This document shows, piece after piece, positions 1,378 through 20,970 of a stretch of DNA of 20,970 bases (the first letter of the stretch is position 1; every line of letters starts with the position of its first letter). Both the position numbers and the translations under genes were made by a program. The notes under the pieces were generated by a model that saw only the letters and a program-made list of their open reading frames with translations, was not told where the DNA came from and did not search any database. The DNA comes from a virus, in IMG/VR virus record IMGVR_UViG_3300047550_000690, positions 1 through 20,970 of that record. One strand, written 5' to 3'.

Positions 1378-4300
1378 ATGCTTAAAAGAAATATTAATTT
1401 TTATAATCCAATTCCAGATGTTGATTTGTATACTACAGAATTTGGATTACCATCAGATTATAAATCAAGAGAAGATAGAGTTATTGATGCTTTAAAAATT
1501 TTAGAAGAAGAACAAAATAAAAATCAAGATTTAAAAAGAGAATTAGAAAGCAAATCATTAAACAATATGAATGCTATTCTTAAAAAAATTGGTGTTGATT
1601 CAAAAAATATAGATGAATATACAAATGATCTTTATCAAAATACAAATTTTTCAGGAAAAGTTGGAAATTTTGCAGGAACAGCTGTGGGTTATTTAAAAGA
1701 ACCAAGTGTATTAGTTAGTTTACCAGCTGGTTTTGCTTATGGGTTTGGAACAACAGCGTTACAAACATTTTTAAAAACAGCATATTACGAAACAGTTCTT
1801 GGAGCAGGTGCAGAAGCATCAAGACAATTAAATGTTCAACCATATAGAAAAAAATTAGGTTATGAAGGAGCTGGTTTTGAAGAAGGAGCTAAAGAAGTAT
1901 TTTGGAGTGCGCTTTTTGCAGGAGGTATTGGAGGTGTTTTAAACACAGGAGTTTATGGAATATCTAAATTATTTTCAAAAACTACTCCTGATATGCAAGT
2001 TAAGATGATTTCAAAAATTCAAAACAATATTGAAAATTTAACTGATGAACAAATATTAAAAATTTATAAAGAAAACTTTCCAGAACAATTTAAAACAAAA
2101 GACACCGATGCCGCAGCTAAATTTATAGAAGATAGAATATTTGAAGATAAACAAAATCCAATGGTGGATAATGTTAGAAGTAGAGATTTACATAATGAAA
2201 GAACAGCAGAGGTAACTGCAAATTTATTAAATGATGAACCAATTCTTATTCCAGATGAATTACCACAAAAATTAAAATTTGAAGATATTCTTAAAGGAGG
2301 ATCTATAGAAGAATTTGATATTAATAAATTAACAACTGATGCAAAAACTTTTCAATATAAATCAGAAACAAATGAATTTGGAATATCACAAAAACTTATG
2401 GAAGTTACAAAGTGGGATCAACCAAGTTCAAGTAGTATTTTAGTATATGAATTTAAAGATGGTAGATTAGCAGTCGTAGATGGACATCAACGATTTGGAT
2501 TAGCTAAAAAACTTATAAATCAAAAACCTAAACTTTATGGATATAGAATTAGAGAAGTAGATGGTTATTCACCTGATCATGCTATGCTTCAAGGTGTTGC
2601 AATTAATTTAAGACATGGAACAGGAACTGCTATTGATGCTGCTAAAATGATGCGTGTTAAAAATTTTGATATTAATGCAATCATGGCAAGCATGCCTATT
2701 AAAACAGAAATAGTTAAAGTTGCTCAGGGTTTAACTAAATTATCTAATGAATCTTTTTCAATGGTAGTTAATAAATTTATTGATTACAAAATTGCATCTA
2801 GAGTTGGTGAATTATTACCTGATAAAGAATTACATGTATCTGCGCTTTCAATTTTAAAAAAACAAAGAATTGATAATATGCAACAAGTAGATTTAATATT
2901 AAAACAAATTAGAGAAACACCTTCTGTTAAAATGAAGGAACAAACATTATTTGGAGTTGAAGAATTTAAACAATCTTTAATTGTTGAAAAAGCAGCATTA
3001 TTATCACAATTCACAAAATCTACAAAAGATAAGAAAAAGTTATTCTCACTTGTATTAAGAGAAGATGAATTATTGACTTCTGTAGGTAATAAGTTAGATA
3101 ATATTAATAACGAAAAAATATTAACTCAAAATGCGAAAATCCAAGAAAAAATTGAAATCCTTGCAACCAGAGTTGGACAACTCTCTACAGATCTCACAGA
3201 AGCAGCCAAGCTCTACCAAGCAGGAAGAAAAGCCGAAGCAAGAAAATACTTCGCCAACGCTGTCGATCGAGCAGCAGAAAGAGGCGATTTTGATGGGATC
3301 AATGCTAGCGGATCACCAGACAATAATGCAATTAAAACTGAGATACAAACAGGCACTGCAGGAAGCAGACCAGAATCAGAAAACGTAAGTAATAAATTAT
3401 TTGATCAACCTGGTGGCAAAGGTTCAGTTGAGCAAAGCCAATCATTAAAAAATGAAATATTAATAGGCGAGGAAGTTCCTCCTGCTAAACCAACACAAAC
3501 AGATTTAACAAATTCTATTAATGCAAAAAATAAAGTTCTTGATGAAAAAGAAAAAAGAACACTTGATACTATAAATCAAAAATTAGATTCAGGAACTGTA
3601 ACAATAGAAGATGTTGCTGATATTAAAAATTCAGATGTTCTTAAACAAATAATAGAAAAACAAGATATTTATACTGCTAATTATAGAACTGATGTTCCTG
3701 CTAATTATGTTAATGGAATTTTTAAAGATCAATATTTAAAAAATAAAATTTATAAATTGGGACAAGATGAATATAAAGGAATAGATAATATTATTAATGC
3801 TATTTATCAAACAGGATCTGAAACAAAAGATCGTGTTGCTTTTATTATAACAGGATTACCTGCTGCTGGTAAATCAACACTTACAAATCAAATTAAAACA
3901 AATTTTAAAGCAATAGTAATTGATCCTGATGATTTAAAAAAAGTAATACCTGAATACAATAATGGTATTGGCGCAGCTGCTACCCATGAAGAAAGTAAAG
4001 TATTATTTAAACAAATGTTAAAAAAATCTGTTTCTGGTGGTGATAATATTATTCTTCCTATTCTTGGCAGAACAAAAGAAACATTAAATGAATTAATAGA
4101 TAATCTTAAAATTAAAAATTATAACACTATAATTGTAAGAGTTGATATTCCAATTAATATTGCAAAACTAAGAAATCTTAAAAGAGCTGTAGAAACTAAC
4201 AGATATATTTATGATGATATTATATCAAAAGAAGTTGATAATAATATTAAAACAAACTATAATAACTTAACAAAGGAACAAATAAATGTCAGAGCTGAAA

Positions 4301-4614
4301 TTGATGGCACAACTGCCGAAGGGGACATCAAGTACATTACAGGATCAAGAGAACAGATTGAAGGAAATATACGAGAATGGAGAGAAATCAGAGCTACGAC
4401 TGCTGAAGGAATTGAAACAAGAGTTATTGCAAGAGAAGAACCAGTAGTTGCTTTAGGTGATGATACTGCAAATATTTTAGATCAAGAATTTTCATTAAGC
4501 ACTAAATTAGATGATGTTAATGAAATCGTACCAGAACTTAAAACTATGAGACAAATTCTTGATGAAGAAAATCAAACTAATTTATTTATTGAAAGATTGA
4601 AAGACTGTATATGA
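1378..4614 (+). CDS. Polyvalent virion protein with ParB-like and zeta-toxin-like domains
   Basis: The visible frame has 1078 residues; the true N-terminus probably lies at 1128 (frameshifted). Domains in order: acidic helical N-terminus; Gly/Ala-rich hydrophobic stretches at 95-150 and 170-200 that could insert into membrane; a ParB/DdrB-like domain around 303-430 with VVDGHQRFGLAKKL at 366-379; helical region 440-620; disordered linker 640-720; and a P-loop kinase domain of zeta-toxin type at 815-960 with Walker A GLPAAGKST (826-834), IDPDD (848-852) and THEES (869-873). ParB-like plus zeta domains fused in a giant protein next to virion genes match the published class of polyvalent proteins, thought to be injected with the DNA. 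Ejection and anti-host activity are inference. Codon use changes near 3130-3390. The stop overlaps the next ATG (ATGA). Confidence 0.75.
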   Translation: MLKRNINFYNPIPDVDLYTTEFGLPSDYKSREDRVIDALKILEEEQNKNQDLKRELESKSLNNMNAILKKIGVDSKNIDEYTNDLYQNTNFSGKVGNFAGTAVGYLKEPSVLVSLPAGFAYGFGTTALQTFLKTAYYETVLGAGAEASRQLNVQPYRKKLGYEGAGFEEGAKEVFWSALFAGGIGGVLNTGVYGISKLFSKTTPDMQVKMISKIQNNIENLTDEQILKIYKENFPEQFKTKDTDAAAKFIEDRIFEDKQNPMVDNVRSRDLHNERTAEVTANLLNDEPILIPDELPQKLKFEDILKGGSIEEFDINKLTTDAKTFQYKSETNEFGISQKLMEVTKWDQPSSSSILVYEFKDGRLAVVDGHQRFGLAKKLINQKPKLYGYRIREVDGYSPDHAMLQGVAINLRHGTGTAIDAAKMMRVKNFDINAIMASMPIKTEIVKVAQGLTKLSNESFSMVVNKFIDYKIASRVGELLPDKELHVSALSILKKQRIDNMQQVDLILKQIRETPSVKMKEQTLFGVEEFKQSLIVEKAALLSQFTKSTKDKKKLFSLVLREDELLTSVGNKLDNINNEKILTQNAKIQEKIEILATRVGQLSTDLTEAAKLYQAGRKAEARKYFANAVDRAAERGDFDGINASGSPDNNAIKTEIQTGTAGSRPESENVSNKLFDQPGGKGSVEQSQSLKNEILIGEEVPPAKPTQTDLTNSINAKNKVLDEKEKRTLDTINQKLDSGTVTIEDVADIKNSDVLKQIIEKQDIYTANYRTDVPANYVNGIFKDQYLKNKIYKLGQDEYKGIDNIINAIYQTGSETKDRVAFIITGLPAAGKSTLTNQIKTNFKAIVIDPDDLKKVIPEYNNGIGAAATHEESKVLFKQMLKKSVSGGDNIILPILGRTKETLNELIDNLKIKNYNTIIVRVDIPINIAKLRNLKRAVETNRYIYDDIISKEVDNNIKTNYNNLTKEQINVRAEIDGTTAEGDIKYITGSREQIEGNIREWREIRATTAEGIETRVIAREEPVVALGDDTANILDQEFSLSTKLDDVNEIVPELKTMRQILDEENQTNLFIERLKDCI

Positions 4615-7335: not shown

Positions 7336-8862
7336 ATGACAATATCATCAACTACAGTTAGAAATAGTTATTCAGGCAATGGATCAACTACAGTTTTCGC
7401 ATATACATTTAAAATCTTAGATGATGATGAAATTCAGGTTATTATCCGATCTTCAACAGGAACTGAAACTATAAAAACAAAAACAACTCATTATACAGTA
7501 TCTGGTGTAGGTGTTGCTGGAGGTGGTAATATCACATTCTTAACAGCTCCTGGATCAACTGAAACAGTAGTTTTAAAAAGAAATACAACTAAAACACAAG
7601 AAACAGATTACGTAGCTAACGATCCATTCCCAGCTAATTCACATGAAGAAGCTCTTGATAGAGTTACAATGATAGCTCAAGAAATTCAAGAAGAGTTAGG
7701 AAGAGCAATTAAATTATCTAAAACAAATACAATGACATCTACAGAATTTACTGTAGGCGCTACTGCTCGTGCTAATAAAATTCTAGCATTTGATACTAAT
7801 GGAGAAATATCAGTTACACAAGAACTTGGAACTAACAGAGGTTCATGGAGTGCTGGTGTTACATACAATGCCAGAGATATTGTAAAAGATTCATCTAACA
7901 ATAACGTATATCTTTGTAATACAACTCACACATCTACAGGTACAACTCCAATTAGTTCTAATGCTGATGTAGCTAAATGGGATTTAATTGTTGATGCACA
8001 ATCTGCTACAAACTCAGCTAATGCAGCTGCTAACTCTGCATCTAACAGTTCTAATTTTGCTAACAACTCATCTAACTCAGCTAATACTGCAGCCAATCAC
8101 GCATCTAATGCAAGTAATTTTGCAAACAATGCTTCTAATTCTGCAAACGATGCTTCAACATATTTAGCTGGTGTAAGTGCTAATGCTAATGCTGCAGCTA
8201 ATTCTGCTAGCAATGCTTCTAACTTTGCAAACAATTCTAGTAACTCAGCAAACACATCTGCAAATCATTCTGCAAATAGTTCTAACTTTGCAAATAACTC
8301 TAGCAATAGTGCTAACACATCAGCAAACCACGCATCAAATTCTAGCAACTTTGCTAATAACAGTTCTAATAGTGCAAACACATCAGCTAATCATGCTGCC
8401 AATTCATCTAACTTTGCAAATAACAGTTCTAACTTTGCTAATAATAGTTCTAACAGTGCTAATACTTCTGCTAATCATGCAAGTAATAGTTCTAACCATG
8501 CTGCTAACTCTAGTAATTTTGCTAATACATCTAGTAACCATGCAGCTAACTCATCAAACTTTGCTAATAATTCATCTAACTTTGCTAACACTGCTTCTAA
8601 TGCGGCTAATGCTGCAAACAGTGCAAGAGATGCGGCTCTAGCAGCAGCTGATAACTTTGATGATACATATTTGGGACAAAAGAATAGCGATCCTGCAGTT
8701 GATAATGATGGCGATCCTTTAACACCAGGTGATTTATATTTTAACAATAGCTCAAATACATTGAAATATTACACAGGATCTACTTGGTTAACTGTAGAGG
8801 CTACAGATACAAGTAATTTAGCTACTAAAGGTTTTGCTCTAGCTGTTTCTATTGCATTATAA
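7336..8862 (+). CDS. T7-gp17-like tail fibre with Asn/Ser/Ala heptad shaft
   Basis: This is a 508-residue receptor-binding fibre. Residues 1-135 match the style of the T7 tail-fibre N-terminal domain (NSYSGNGSTTVFAYTF, then VLKRNTTKTQETDY), which anchors the fibre to the tail. Residues about 170-220 (WSAGVTYNARDIVKDSSNNN, YLCNTTHTS, final KWD) resemble a small CBM5/12-type carbohydrate-binding module. Residues 225-430 are an unbroken series of heptads. The end (DNFDDTYLG, PAVDNDGDPLTPGDLYFN, STWLTV) is a C-terminal cassette common in phage fibres. ATG 7336 follows ATAGGGAATT, a good ribosome site. It opens the adsorption gene block directly after the internal virion proteins. Family assignment is strong; receptor specificity is unknown. 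Confidence 0.85.
   Translation: MTISSTTVRNSYSGNGSTTVFAYTFKILDDDEIQVIIRSSTGTETIKTKTTHYTVSGVGVAGGGNITFLTAPGSTETVVLKRNTTKTQETDYVANDPFPANSHEEALDRVTMIAQEIQEELGRAIKLSKTNTMTSTEFTVGATARANKILAFDTNGEISVTQELGTNRGSWSAGVTYNARDIVKDSSNNNVYLCNTTHTSTGTTPISSNADVAKWDLIVDAQSATNSANAAANSASNSSNFANNSSNSANTAANHASNASNFANNASNSANDASTYLAGVSANANAAANSASNASNFANNSSNSANTSANHSANSSNFANNSSNSANTSANHASNSSNFANNSSNSANTSANHAANSSNFANNSSNFANNSSNSANTSANHASNSSNHAANSSNFANTSSNHAANSSNFANNSSNFANTASNAANAANSARDAALAAADNFDDTYLGQKNSDPAVDNDGDPLTPGDLYFNNSSNTLKYYTGSTWLTVEATDTSNLATKGFALAVSIAL
8001..8640 (+). repeat. About 28 tandem 21-bp units encoding a heptad shaft
   Basis: Within the fibre gene the protein repeats in strict heptads of the form [S/A][S/A]N[F/S/H]A[N/S][N/T], for example SSNFANN, SSNSANT, SANHASN. 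The phase is kept from end to end. The DNA units are heavily diverged at synonymous sites (TCT, TCA, AGT and AGC for Ser; GCT and GCA for Ala), so the repeat is maintained at protein level. Small residues recur with 3/4 spacing, compatible with an Ala/Ser-core coiled shaft. Other elongated folds are possible. Confidence 0.9.
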
Positions 8863-11180: not shown

Positions 11181-12032
11181 ATGGCATATATCGGCAAACA
11201 AAAAATATTTATAAATAACAAATATAAAGTTTGGCATGATAATATAATTGCCAGAGCTAAGAACAGAACATTAGAAGGATATAAAGAAGTACACCATATC
11301 ATTCCTAAAAGCTGTGGTGGTTCAAATGATAAAGATAATATTGTTAATCTTACTGCAAGAGAACATTATATAGTTCATTTATTATTACCTTATTTTACTA
11401 CAGGTGTTGCTAAGCATAAGATGCTAAATGCTTTCATATTTATGACATCTAAATCTAAGTTCTGTAAAAGAGATTATAAGATCCATTCAAGAGTATATGA
11501 AAAATTAAAAAGTGAATTTGCTGCATCATTAAAAGGTAGAAGATTAACACCTGAGTGGAAAGCAAAAATATCTAAAACATTAACAGGAACTAAATTACCA
11601 GAATCAACTAGAAGAAAAATTAGCTTAGCAAATATGGGTAAAAAAGTTAGCGAAAAATCTAAATTAGCTTTATCTATTCGTAATAAAGGTAATAAATATA
11701 ATCTTGGTAAAAAAGCATCATTAGAAACTAAAAGAAAACAATCTATTGCACATACTGGTAAAAAACATACAGAAGAATCTAAAGCAAAAATTAAATATGC
11801 TAGACAGTTTCAGGTTTGCTCAGACGAACAAAGAAAAAGATATAGCGAAATATATTCTAATTTGATTTGGGTTAATAAAGATAATAAATCTAAAAGAATT
11901 AAACCAGAATTAAAACAAGAGTATTTGAATAATGGATATAAACTTGGTAGAGATATGTCTTATATGACAAAAGAATTAAGAAATATATTTGCACAAAAAA
12001 CAAAAGCATATTTTGAAAGGAGAGTTGCATAG
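11181..12032 (+). CDS. HNH homing endonuclease with NUMOD3-type repeats
   Basis: This is a 283-residue free-standing homing endonuclease. The HNH core is at 33-70: EVHHIIPKSCGGSNDKDNIV, then NLTAREHYIVHLLLP, with H38/H39, N53, H62 and H66 as likely catalytic or metal residues. Residues about 115-210 carry several NUMOD3-like DNA-binding motifs (KGRRLTPEWKAKISKTLTG, NMGKKVSEKSKLALS, HTGKKHTEESKAKIK). It lies between a fibre-partner gene and a fibre gene, as expected for an intron-less homing gene that targets a conserved phage sequence. Its first residues, MAYIGKQ, imitate the MAYLGRQ of the following fibre. It sits one base after the preceding stop and ends directly at the TTG start of the next gene, so it is embedded in the late operon. 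Confidence 0.9.
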   Translation: MAYIGKQKIFINNKYKVWHDNIIARAKNRTLEGYKEVHHIIPKSCGGSNDKDNIVNLTAREHYIVHLLLPYFTTGVAKHKMLNAFIFMTSKSKFCKRDYKIHSRVYEKLKSEFAASLKGRRLTPEWKAKISKTLTGTKLPESTRRKISLANMGKKVSEKSKLALSIRNKGNKYNLGKKASLETKRKQSIAHTGKKHTEESKAKIKYARQFQVCSDEQRKRYSEIYSNLIWVNKDNKSKRIKPELKQEYLNNGYKLGRDMSYMTKELRNIFAQKTKAYFERRVA

Positions 12033-14641: not shown

Positions 14642-14650
14642 TTATCCACA
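14642..14650 (+). promoter_or_regulatory. Perfect consensus DnaA box (TTATCCACA)
   Basis: TTATCCACA is identical to the strongest E. coli-type DnaA box. It lies in a noncoding gap directly after the hairpin at 14619. It is the only perfect copy I found by eye. The phage itself encodes a DnaA domain-IV protein (17341-17865), so the site may be meaningful; a single 9-mer can also occur by chance. Confidence 0.4.
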
Positions 14651-17203: not shown

Positions 17204-17346
17204 TGGAAAACAAAGGTTTATATTATAACATAAATAAACGCAGGAAAGCAGGAATATCTAGATCAAAAAAAGATTCAACGATATCTCCTGAAGCATATAG
17301 AAATATGAAAGCTGGTTTTCCTAAAAAGAAAAAAACTATTTTATAG
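17203..17346 (+). CDS. 47-aa basic phage protein ending KKKKTIL
   Basis: It starts MENKGLYYNINKRRKAGISR, then STISPEAYRNMKAGFP and a polylysine end. The 'GLYxNIxxxR' opening is typical of a small phage family usually found next to late genes. It is the last plus-strand gene; its stop (17344-17346) overlaps by six bases the end of the convergent DnaA-like gene. Function unknown; a basic virion-internal or nucleic-acid-binding protein is plausible. Confidence 0.6.
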   Translation: MENKGLYYNINKRRKAGISRSKKDSTISPEAYRNMKAGFPKKKKTIL

Positions 17347-17865
17347 TTCTTTATTTAGTTCCTCGTAAATATTCCAGATTTCATTCTGCGGTTTCCAATA
17401 ACCTATCTTTAAATTCTTTTGGTTATGGTGATACATAATCGTTGTATGATTTCTCTTGCCAAGAACGTTACCAACGATTGTATAGTTCATGCTAGCTCTC
17501 TCAAGCATAATATTAATTGCAATAGTTCTTGCATATACAAACTTCTGTAATCTACTTGGAGATTTAATCTCGTCAATAGAGACATCAAATCTTTTACATA
17601 TCTTCTCCAGGATATGATTAACCTCAGGAAATATACTAATTATATTAGCTTTCTTTGTTGGTTCTTTGATTGAATATAATTTCTTTTTAGAAATAACAGA
17701 ATAATATTTTGCTTTATATTTATTAACTTCAGTATTTAAAAAATCCCAAACAAGTCTGGACCCAGTAATAAAACCTTCTCTATATTCTTTATTGTTAATT
17801 GTTTTGGTTCTTCCTTTAATAGAGGTTTTTAATCTTATAATGGCTGCTTTAGTAAATTCACTCAT
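17341..17865 (-). CDS. DnaA domain IV (DnaA-box-binding) protein without AAA+ module
   Basis: This 174-residue protein has an N-terminal basic, helical region of about 80 residues with no counterpart I know (MSEFTKAAIIRLKTSIKGRT). Residues 84-150 follow DnaA domain IV: ICKRFDVSIDEIKSPSR, then YARTIAINIMLERASMNYTI and the DnaA signature KRNHTTIMYHHNQ (137-149; GGRDHTTVLHA in host DnaA). The AAA+ ATPase domain III is absent. Such a protein could bind DnaA boxes without forming the initiator filament, acting as a phage origin binder, a transcription regulator, or a competitor of host DnaA (inference). I chose ATG 17865, behind GGAGATATTA and overlapping the upstream microprotein's stop. It is the last gene of the minus-strand operon. 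Confidence 0.85.
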   Translation of the reverse strand: MSEFTKAAIIRLKTSIKGRTKTINNKEYREGFITGSRLVWDFLNTEVNKYKAKYYSVISKKKLYSIKEPTKKANIISIFPEVNHILEKICKRFDVSIDEIKSPSRLQKFVYARTIAINIMLERASMNYTIVGNVLGKRNHTTIMYHHNQKNLKIGYWKPQNEIWNIYEELNKEL

Positions 17866-17974
17866 TAATATCTCCTTGATCAAATTGAAATAAAAAATTA
17901 GCAACATCATAAACTAATGATGCTGCTGCTATTAGTATAAGAATCTGCATTAATGTTATTATATATGTAAGCAT
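17858..17974 (-). CDS. 38-aa single-pass membrane microprotein
   Basis: It starts MLTYIITLMQILILIAAASL, followed by VYDVANFLFQF and an acidic end (DQGDINE). One transmembrane helix with a short tail. Its stop overlaps the DnaA-like gene start by eight bases (ATGAGTGA), so the two are translationally coupled. A ribosome site (AGGAGATAAT) overlaps the end of the gene before. Function unknown. Confidence 0.5.
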   Translation of the reverse strand: MLTYIITLMQILILIAAASLVYDVANFLFQFDQGDINE

Positions 17975-19587: not shown

Positions 19588-19691
19588 CTGGTTTCCTTTC
19601 TGTGATTTGTTTGGCATATCTAATATATGACAGTGTCTAGCCAAAATGTCTAGATATCTACAGAAAGAAATAATGTAGATAAATCAATAAC
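19588..19691 (-). promoter_or_regulatory. Repeat-rich intergenic control region
   Basis: This 104-bp region is the longest noncoding stretch in the minus operon. On the plus strand it holds a direct repeat TGTCTAG (19634-19640 and 19647-19653), the palindrome TAGATATCTA (19651-19660), and an 8-bp inverted repeat TATCTACA/TGTAGATA (19655-19662, 19674-19681). Read on the minus strand, TAGACA (19652-19647) lies 17-19 bases before TATATT-like -10 sequences (19629-19622), a possible promoter. TTATCTACA (19682-19674 on minus) differs from a DnaA box by one base. Operator function is inferred. Confidence 0.45.
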
Positions 19692-20311: not shown

Positions 20312-20605
20312 CTATCTCCTGTAGGTTTGTTTCTGGTAACCACCTGCAGGTTTAGCTGCGGCAGCTCCATCCTTAGCTGGTTTAACAGAATAGATAGACA
20401 AGAACTCAGTGCCTTCAGGCATTGACTTTCCTGCGCCAACTATTTTTTTATAACCACCTATATACAACTTTGATGATGCACCAGCATCAGCAACTAATCT
20501 GTAACCAGATAAGATTGCAGTACCTGTGAAATCAAAGTCTGTTTCTTTTTCTTTAGTAGAAGGATCTGTAAAAAATATCCCTCCACTGTTTTTAGCATCA
20601 GCCAT
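20312..20605 (-). CDS. Hypothetical 97-aa protein next to the annealing protein
   Basis: It starts MADAKNSGGIFFTDPSTKEK behind AGGAGGTTTTA, overlapping the ERF stop by eight bases. The central part (FDFTGTAILSGYRLVADAGA, then KLYIGGYKKIVGAG) is beta-rich, and the C-terminus (AKDGAAAAKPAGGYQKQTYR) is a flexible Ala/Gly/Lys tail. A small beta-barrel with a disordered tail beside a recombinase suggests an SSB-like DNA-binding partner, but the tail is basic, not acidic as in typical SSBs. Kept as hypothetical. Confidence 0.6.
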   Translation of the reverse strand: MADAKNSGGIFFTDPSTKEKETDFDFTGTAILSGYRLVADAGASSKLYIGGYKKIVGAGKSMPEGTEFLSIYSVKPAKDGAAAAKPAGGYQKQTYRR

Positions 20606-20970
20606 TAAAACCTCCTATTTTGGTTTGGTTGATTATGTTGTTTCTTGCAGAGCTTTGTGTAAACTTTGAAACTGGTTCTGGTTTTAGATTGTGAAGTTCA
20701 CTCTCTTCATCATCACCTATTTCAAGCATAAAAGTTTTTAGCAAAGCATATTTAGTTGCATAACTAATTGCTTTACCTATTCCTTTATCTGATGGATCAA
20801 CTCCATATCCAACAAATCCCTGCGCTGTGTAACAATCTTCCGGATTATCAATATTCATAAACTTCATGTCTATTGATACCATTGTAAAGTTACCTTCTCT
20901 TGAATGATTAGATACAGAAGGAATTGCTATAATCCCCTGCTTAATCATTTCAGTCTTGATAGTATTATTT
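20598..20970 (-). CDS. erf: ERF-family single-strand annealing protein, C-terminal part
   Basis: The frame is open to the right edge; the first ATG in view (20948) is internal, so the N-terminus is missing. The visible part carries the ERF core: GIIAIPSVSN, FTMVSIDMKFMNIDNPED, VGYGVDPSDKGIGKAISYAT followed by KYALLKTFMLEIGDDEES. 'DKGIGKAISYATKYALLKTF' is the hallmark of ERF/Rad52-like annealing proteins of phages, which pair complementary single strands during genome recombination, concatemer formation or circularisation. The short tail (NIINQTKIGGFNG) is disordered. It is the most upstream visible gene of the minus-strand operon. Confidence 0.85.
   Translation of the reverse strand, partial: NNTIKTEMIKQGIIAIPSVSNHSREGNFTMVSIDMKFMNIDNPEDCYTAQGFVGYGVDPSDKGIGKAISYATKYALLKTFMLEIGDDEESELHNLKPEPVSKFTQSSARNNIINQTKIGGFNG

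Follow-up and report, generated by a model that had tools for sequence, protein, structure and literature searches.

The window (the whole 20,970-nt stretch of viral DNA that was analysed) carries a dnaA-like gene whose predicted product is a stand-alone DnaA domain-IV protein (Table 1). The gene is the last of a leftward early operon and is convergent with the late genes. An alternative in-frame start of this ORF, at 17910, is probably unused, since a ribosome site (AAGGAGATA) lies ahead of the start at 17865 and the ORFs of relatives open with ATG or GTG at this position. The early operon also contains a gene coding for an Erf-like annealing protein, the full-length copy of which in the relative G001 matches PF04404. 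In the marine relatives Greip, HTVC203P and Skadi, the early operon is ordered nuclease, annealing protein, small genes and dnaA-like gene. Directly upstream of the dnaA-like gene no conserved DnaA boxes were seen. Elsewhere in the window we noted a 1078-aa putative virion-associated protein (1378–4614), which oddly pairs a ParB-like stretch (VVDGHQRFGLAKKL, spotted by eye) with a C-terminal P-loop kinase-like domain (GLPAAGKST; matches to phrog_2071, ATPase, and phrog_505, polynucleotide kinase), a tail-fibre-like protein (7336–8862), the second half of which consists of a long (S/A)N-rich repeat (SSNxANxSANxA), and, amid the tail-fibre genes, an ORF recognised by reading as HNH-type homing-endonuclease-like (11181–12032).

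Table 1. Coordinates of the features discussed, with the evidence for each.
Feature	Position	Strand	Evidence
dnaA-like gene (174 aa) of an HTVC010P-related phage, coding for a stand-alone DnaA domain-IV protein	17341..17865	-	ORF, domain match, alignments
N-terminal module, residues 1–74: predicted helices 3–16 and 26–54, then a disordered basic linker	17644..17865	-	AlphaFold2 model, alignment
DnaA domain IV (Bac_DnaA_C), residues 83–148	17422..17619	-	PF08299, Foldseek, residue map
C-terminal tail, residues 150–174, outside the Pfam domain	17344..17418	-	alignments, model
Canonical DnaA box TTATCCACA, the sole exact one in the window	14642..14650	+	followed after about 20 nt by a small ORF
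Intergenic element with inverted repeat TATCTACA-N11-TGTAGATA (19655–19681)	19640..19690	.	conservation
Erf-like single-strand annealing protein, possibly truncated by the end of the window	20598..20948	-	phrog_155, E 6.9e-14

A sequence-only reading had claimed that the C-terminal residues fit the DnaA DNA-binding domain, including its HTT signature. This was borne out: the HTT triplet is present, and residues 83–148 match PF08299 (Bac_DnaA_C) over model positions 2–67 of 69 with 58.7 bits (E 5.8e-16), above the Pfam gathering cut-off of 31.5 bits and for this reason far from chance. All 30 aligned family members matched the same profile. The contact residues of domain IV are all kept (R105, R113, H140, T141 and T142, corresponding to E. 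coli R399, R407, H434, T435 and T436), and the HTT triplet as well as the equivalents of the minor-groove residues R399 and R407 are nearly invariant across the family. The E. coli DnaA variants R399A and T435M are impaired in box binding (PMC5742627). Within the freshwater clade, to which the window belongs, the equivalent of D433 in the recognition helix is changed to N (N139), and that of R405 to Y. In an AlphaFold2 model derived from 30 relatives (block-mean pLDDT of at least 85 in the domain-IV region), the predicted domain IV superposes on the DnaA-box complexes 1J1V (E. coli) and 3PVP (M. tuberculosis) with an rmsd of 1.5–1.6 Å (Foldseek).

The ATPase had been described as missing, and this also held: the model shows no AAA+ fold, PF00308 (Bac_DnaA) had no match in the window or in five relatives, a Walker A motif was found in none of the 30 aligned family members, and the protein scored 53 against the cut-off of 344 of the full-length DnaA model TIGR00362, which argues that it is not a DnaA initiator. 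A degenerate AAA+ fold in the N-terminal part, which would have refuted the earlier reading, does not appear in the predicted structure. The model is all-helical, without strands, and is disordered or of low confidence at residues 50–76. The 80-residue region that was said to stand in place of the ATPase is indeed basic (18 K/R versus 6 D/E in residues 1–80), but it is not structureless: it forms a predicted helical module with the motif Y-x2-(G)F-x2-G, common to the window protein and its marine homologues, in which Y28, F32 and G35 are invariant and G31 is found in at least 90% of the sequences. The C-terminal tail has three invariant residues (K150, W157 and W164) and a last helix modelled at 163–173. 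Judged by sequence and predicted structure, the protein thus keeps the DNA-binding domain IV of DnaA but lacks the AAA+ engine, and having no ATPase, it would be unable to melt an origin itself as DnaA does.

Its description as an undescribed device did not hold up, as homologues are present in 19 pelagiphage records, several of them with a DnaA annotation, and also in phage phiGT1 and many phage entries of BFVD. Annotations in isolates read 'DNA replication initiation (DnaA)', 'Bac_DnaA_C domain-containing protein' or 'DnaA-like', and Chen et al. 2019 (PMC6811365) name DnaA among the proteins shared by all of their HTVC010P-related genomes. A profile search of viral contigs recovered 177 stretches that code for relatives, and near-identical genes occur in further IMG/VR contigs, one of which is G001 (34.2 kb). 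The large terminase subunit (TerL) and the capsid protein of G001 are 62% and 70% identical, respectively, to those of HTVC010P, the former value lying within the range of terminase identity (62–85%) given for phages of Fonsibacter (freshwater SAR11) by Chen et al. 2019 (PMC6811365). The source phage is HTVC010P-related, and kinship with HTVC010P-type phages points to freshwater SAR11 bacteria as its probable host. The window protein had no PHROGs match and marine members only weak ones, and a search of cellular genome contigs confirmed no cellular homologues. On these comparisons the gene is a member of a known family, the DnaA-like genes of SAR11 phages of the HTVC010P type, and codes for a real, well-formed protein that is already known and annotated, while its function is a prediction.

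New here is a conserved late-region DnaA box in the marine relatives. In 24 dereplicated marine relatives we surveyed the 300-nt region upstream of the first late gene, which appears to be a 63-aa gene preceding the large terminase subunit. The box TTATNCACA was exact in 19 of these regions and present with at most one mismatch in 23, located 56 or 58 nt ahead of the start codon (67 nt in Greip) and throughout on the same strand as the late gene, and no exact match fell in any other bin of the 24 upstream regions. The eight fixed positions of the box average 1.89 bits compared with 0.98 in the flanks, in an alignment that was anchored on the best match and consists of mutually related sequences; the fifth (N) position is free, taking A or C, as it does in genuine DnaA boxes. 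Each of the eight gene-bearing marine contigs that were checked had the late-head box too. No consensus sigma-70 promoter above chance was found beside the box, and an AT-rich tract is found a short way upstream, a block that could be an origin or packaging region. Since boxes are overall unenriched in the window and five relatives (six genomes or fragments, none with a cluster and all at or below expectation at up to one mismatch; 30 sites versus 39 expected in the window), the late-head box stands out, and a DnaA-box cluster acting as a phage oriC was rejected.

The freshwater relatives of the window read TTTCACACACACA in the same region and lack the box; the window itself ends short of the late-operon head. 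The box-less clade is the one with the changed recognition helix (D433 to N), a coincidence that is only suggestive because it represents a single evolutionary event. Contig L111 (28.5 kb) was rejected as a case of correlated loss of gene and box: by the gene order of HTVC010P it stops short of the dnaA position and is therefore uninformative. Upstream of the 63-aa late gene, five freshwater relatives (L190, L196, L200, L212 and L214) have an inverted repeat, CCGATAAC...TTATCGG, a possible second operator.

Within the window, the best candidate target is the intergenic element in the early operon, a stretch of 51 nt that is almost unchanged across about twelve related contigs and is kept in L041 despite a protein identity of only 67%. 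Its paired half-sites (19655–19682) are TTATCTACA-like, a weaker match to the DnaA box. Substitutions in relatives are uncompensated, which led us to reject a hairpin and makes a protein operator likelier; on this pattern of conservation we consider the element a candidate operator of the freshwater clade. As a genome-wide motif TTATCTACA was discarded, its sites being scattered and many of them within genes. The exact box at 14642 was also dismissed as a conserved site, as only some members of the clade have an exact copy and in others it is lost or gapped, and its function is doubtful.

In the marine relatives, an intergenic hairpin lies about 630–740 nt upstream of the dnaA-like gene (L017:6810–6870, L016:19110–19170, L104:2025–2110 and equivalents). 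It has a pyrimidine-rich loop (CCCTTTC flanked by T runs), which we take to resemble the anti-Shine-Dalgarno end of 16S rRNA. Its outer stems vary by lineage with complementarity kept (GTCTTGGGG/CCCCAAGAC, GTCTTAGGG/CCCTAAGAC, GTGGCGGGG/CCCCGCCAC and AAGCAGGGTGGGG/CCCCACCTTGCTT), and its fold z-scores are about −3 to −4. At gathering thresholds it had no Rfam match. It may serve as an RNA regulator or as a single-strand origin.

Taking sequence and analogy together, we tentatively favour, at just short of an even chance, the explanation that the stand-alone domain-IV protein is a site-specific regulator that binds the box heading the late operon, thereby switching late expression. The protein would be produced from the end of the early operon, its domain IV would bind one DnaA-box-type site at the late-operon head, and its helical N-terminus and W-rich tail would contact a partner, be it RNA polymerase, a second copy of itself or host DnaA; binding to the box together with this contact would then switch late expression in a GafY-like manner. 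We infer that the phage protein, rather than host DnaA, would bind the late-head box, that binding would activate transcription and that the freshwater clade would use a shifted site. This explanation draws on the domain match, the predicted fold, the contact residues, the operon position and the marine box, and on the fact that no polymerase A or DnaB-type helicase was detected. Repression had been among the options of the sequence-only reading, and some form of transcriptional control is now no less likely than a role in replication.

The main rival to a late-region regulator is recognition of a phage origin: the protein would bind the conserved box or another phage site, recruit the host replisome through host DnaA or DnaB, and so replace an O-like initiator. 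Neither the window nor five relatives had a match to DNA polymerase A, DnaB helicase or the AAA+ domain of DnaA, and Skadi is described as dependent on host polymerases (PMC10504331), for which reasons the protein could be an origin marker. The position of the gene in a recombination and replication operon, beside a nuclease and an annealing protein, the AT-rich tract just upstream of the late-head box and the depositors' annotation 'DNA replication initiation' are all consistent with this. We nevertheless regard it as rather unlikely, because there is one box only and no cluster, because an AAA+ domain for opening DNA is lacking, and because a distinct HTH_36 protein, similar to phage replication initiators, is encoded by the freshwater relative G001. 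The gene for this protein (L022:15445–15969) lies on the opposite early arm of G001 and matches phrog_270 (E 3e-10), with weaker matches in marine phages, and by sequence its product is a candidate for an alternative initiator in these phages.

Two further explanations involve the host's own initiation system. In one, host DnaA reads the conserved box, which would tie late expression to the host initiator, and the phage protein regulates independently or in competition, for example as an autorepressor acting at 19655–19681. That the box fits the canonical bacterial consensus agrees with this, as does the strong conservation of the inverted repeat within the freshwater clade, but the clade without the box is the one with the changed helix, which, although a single evolutionary event, fits the phage protein as the reader; we consider host DnaA as the reader improbable. 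In the other, which is the takeover idea of the sequence-only reading, the protein occupies the DnaA boxes of the host oriC and halts host replication. The contact residues of domain IV would allow this, and since box counts in the phage genomes do not exceed expectation, boxes of the host could be the chief targets. The gene, however, stands at the end of an operon with recombination genes, gene-bearing marine phages retain a late-head box of their own, and these phages need host replication proteins; moreover, an oriC blocker should retain host specificity, whereas the equivalent of D433 is changed to N in the window clade. A block of host initiation therefore appears decidedly improbable.

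HTVC010P-type phages belong to the most abundant phages of the ocean. If the late-region explanation is true, then in very abundant phages a captured DnaA domain IV reads one box heading the late operon. The annotation 'DNA replication initiation' may be wrong; the late-region box weakens so confident a label and provides a specific site at which the annotated function can be tested. The fuller proposition, that a gene labelled a replication initiator encodes a late-gene switch of DnaA origin, and that reader and site changed together in the freshwater clade, is conceivable but on balance unlikely.

The closest and best-tested analogue is the transcription activator GafY of Caulobacter, a homologue of DnaA domain IV according to its authors. 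With IHF it binds the promoters of a gene transfer agent (GTA) and turns them on, contacting sigma-70 in the proposed model, and the authors propose that it has no role in oriC regulation (PMC9632790, PMC11150451). Like GafY and Rhodobacter GafA, the window protein has a stand-alone or N-terminal domain-IV-like DNA-binding domain and belongs to an alphaproteobacterial phage-like element. Unlike these systems, it has no GafZ-type partner (DUF6456), a domain without a match in the window and five relatives, whereas the Caulobacter control and phage RDJLPhi1 did match. It keeps the equivalent of R399, where GafA has E8, and GafA of phage RDJLPhi1 showed no profile similarity to the dnaA-like family. 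As no consensus promoter was found beside the box, DUF6456 is absent and RDJLPhi1 GafA is dissimilar, the likeness to GafY is one of working principle and not of family membership. With bacterial DnaA (E. coli, B. subtilis and M. tuberculosis) the protein shares the domain-IV fold and the DNA-contact residues, but domain III (AAA+) is missing, the N-terminal module and the tail are different, and D433 is changed to N in the window clade. Sulfitobacter phage phiGT1 gp62 ('DnaA C-terminal domain IV') and other phage proteins in BFVD likewise have domain IV without AAA+; phiGT1 gp62 is shorter (115 aa) and, its domain IV beginning at residue 4, lacks the N-terminal module. The DnaA-like proteins of HTVC010P-type phages (Greip gp42, HTVC203P gp22, Skadi1_28 and HTVC010P gp46) resemble the window protein in length (about 170 aa), domain IV, the N-terminal Y-x2-GF-x2-G motif, the W..P..W tail and the position at the end of the early operon. 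They differ from it in being only about 26% identical, in reading GQDHTT where the freshwater clade has GKRNHTT, and in coming from marine phages that have the late-head DnaA box.
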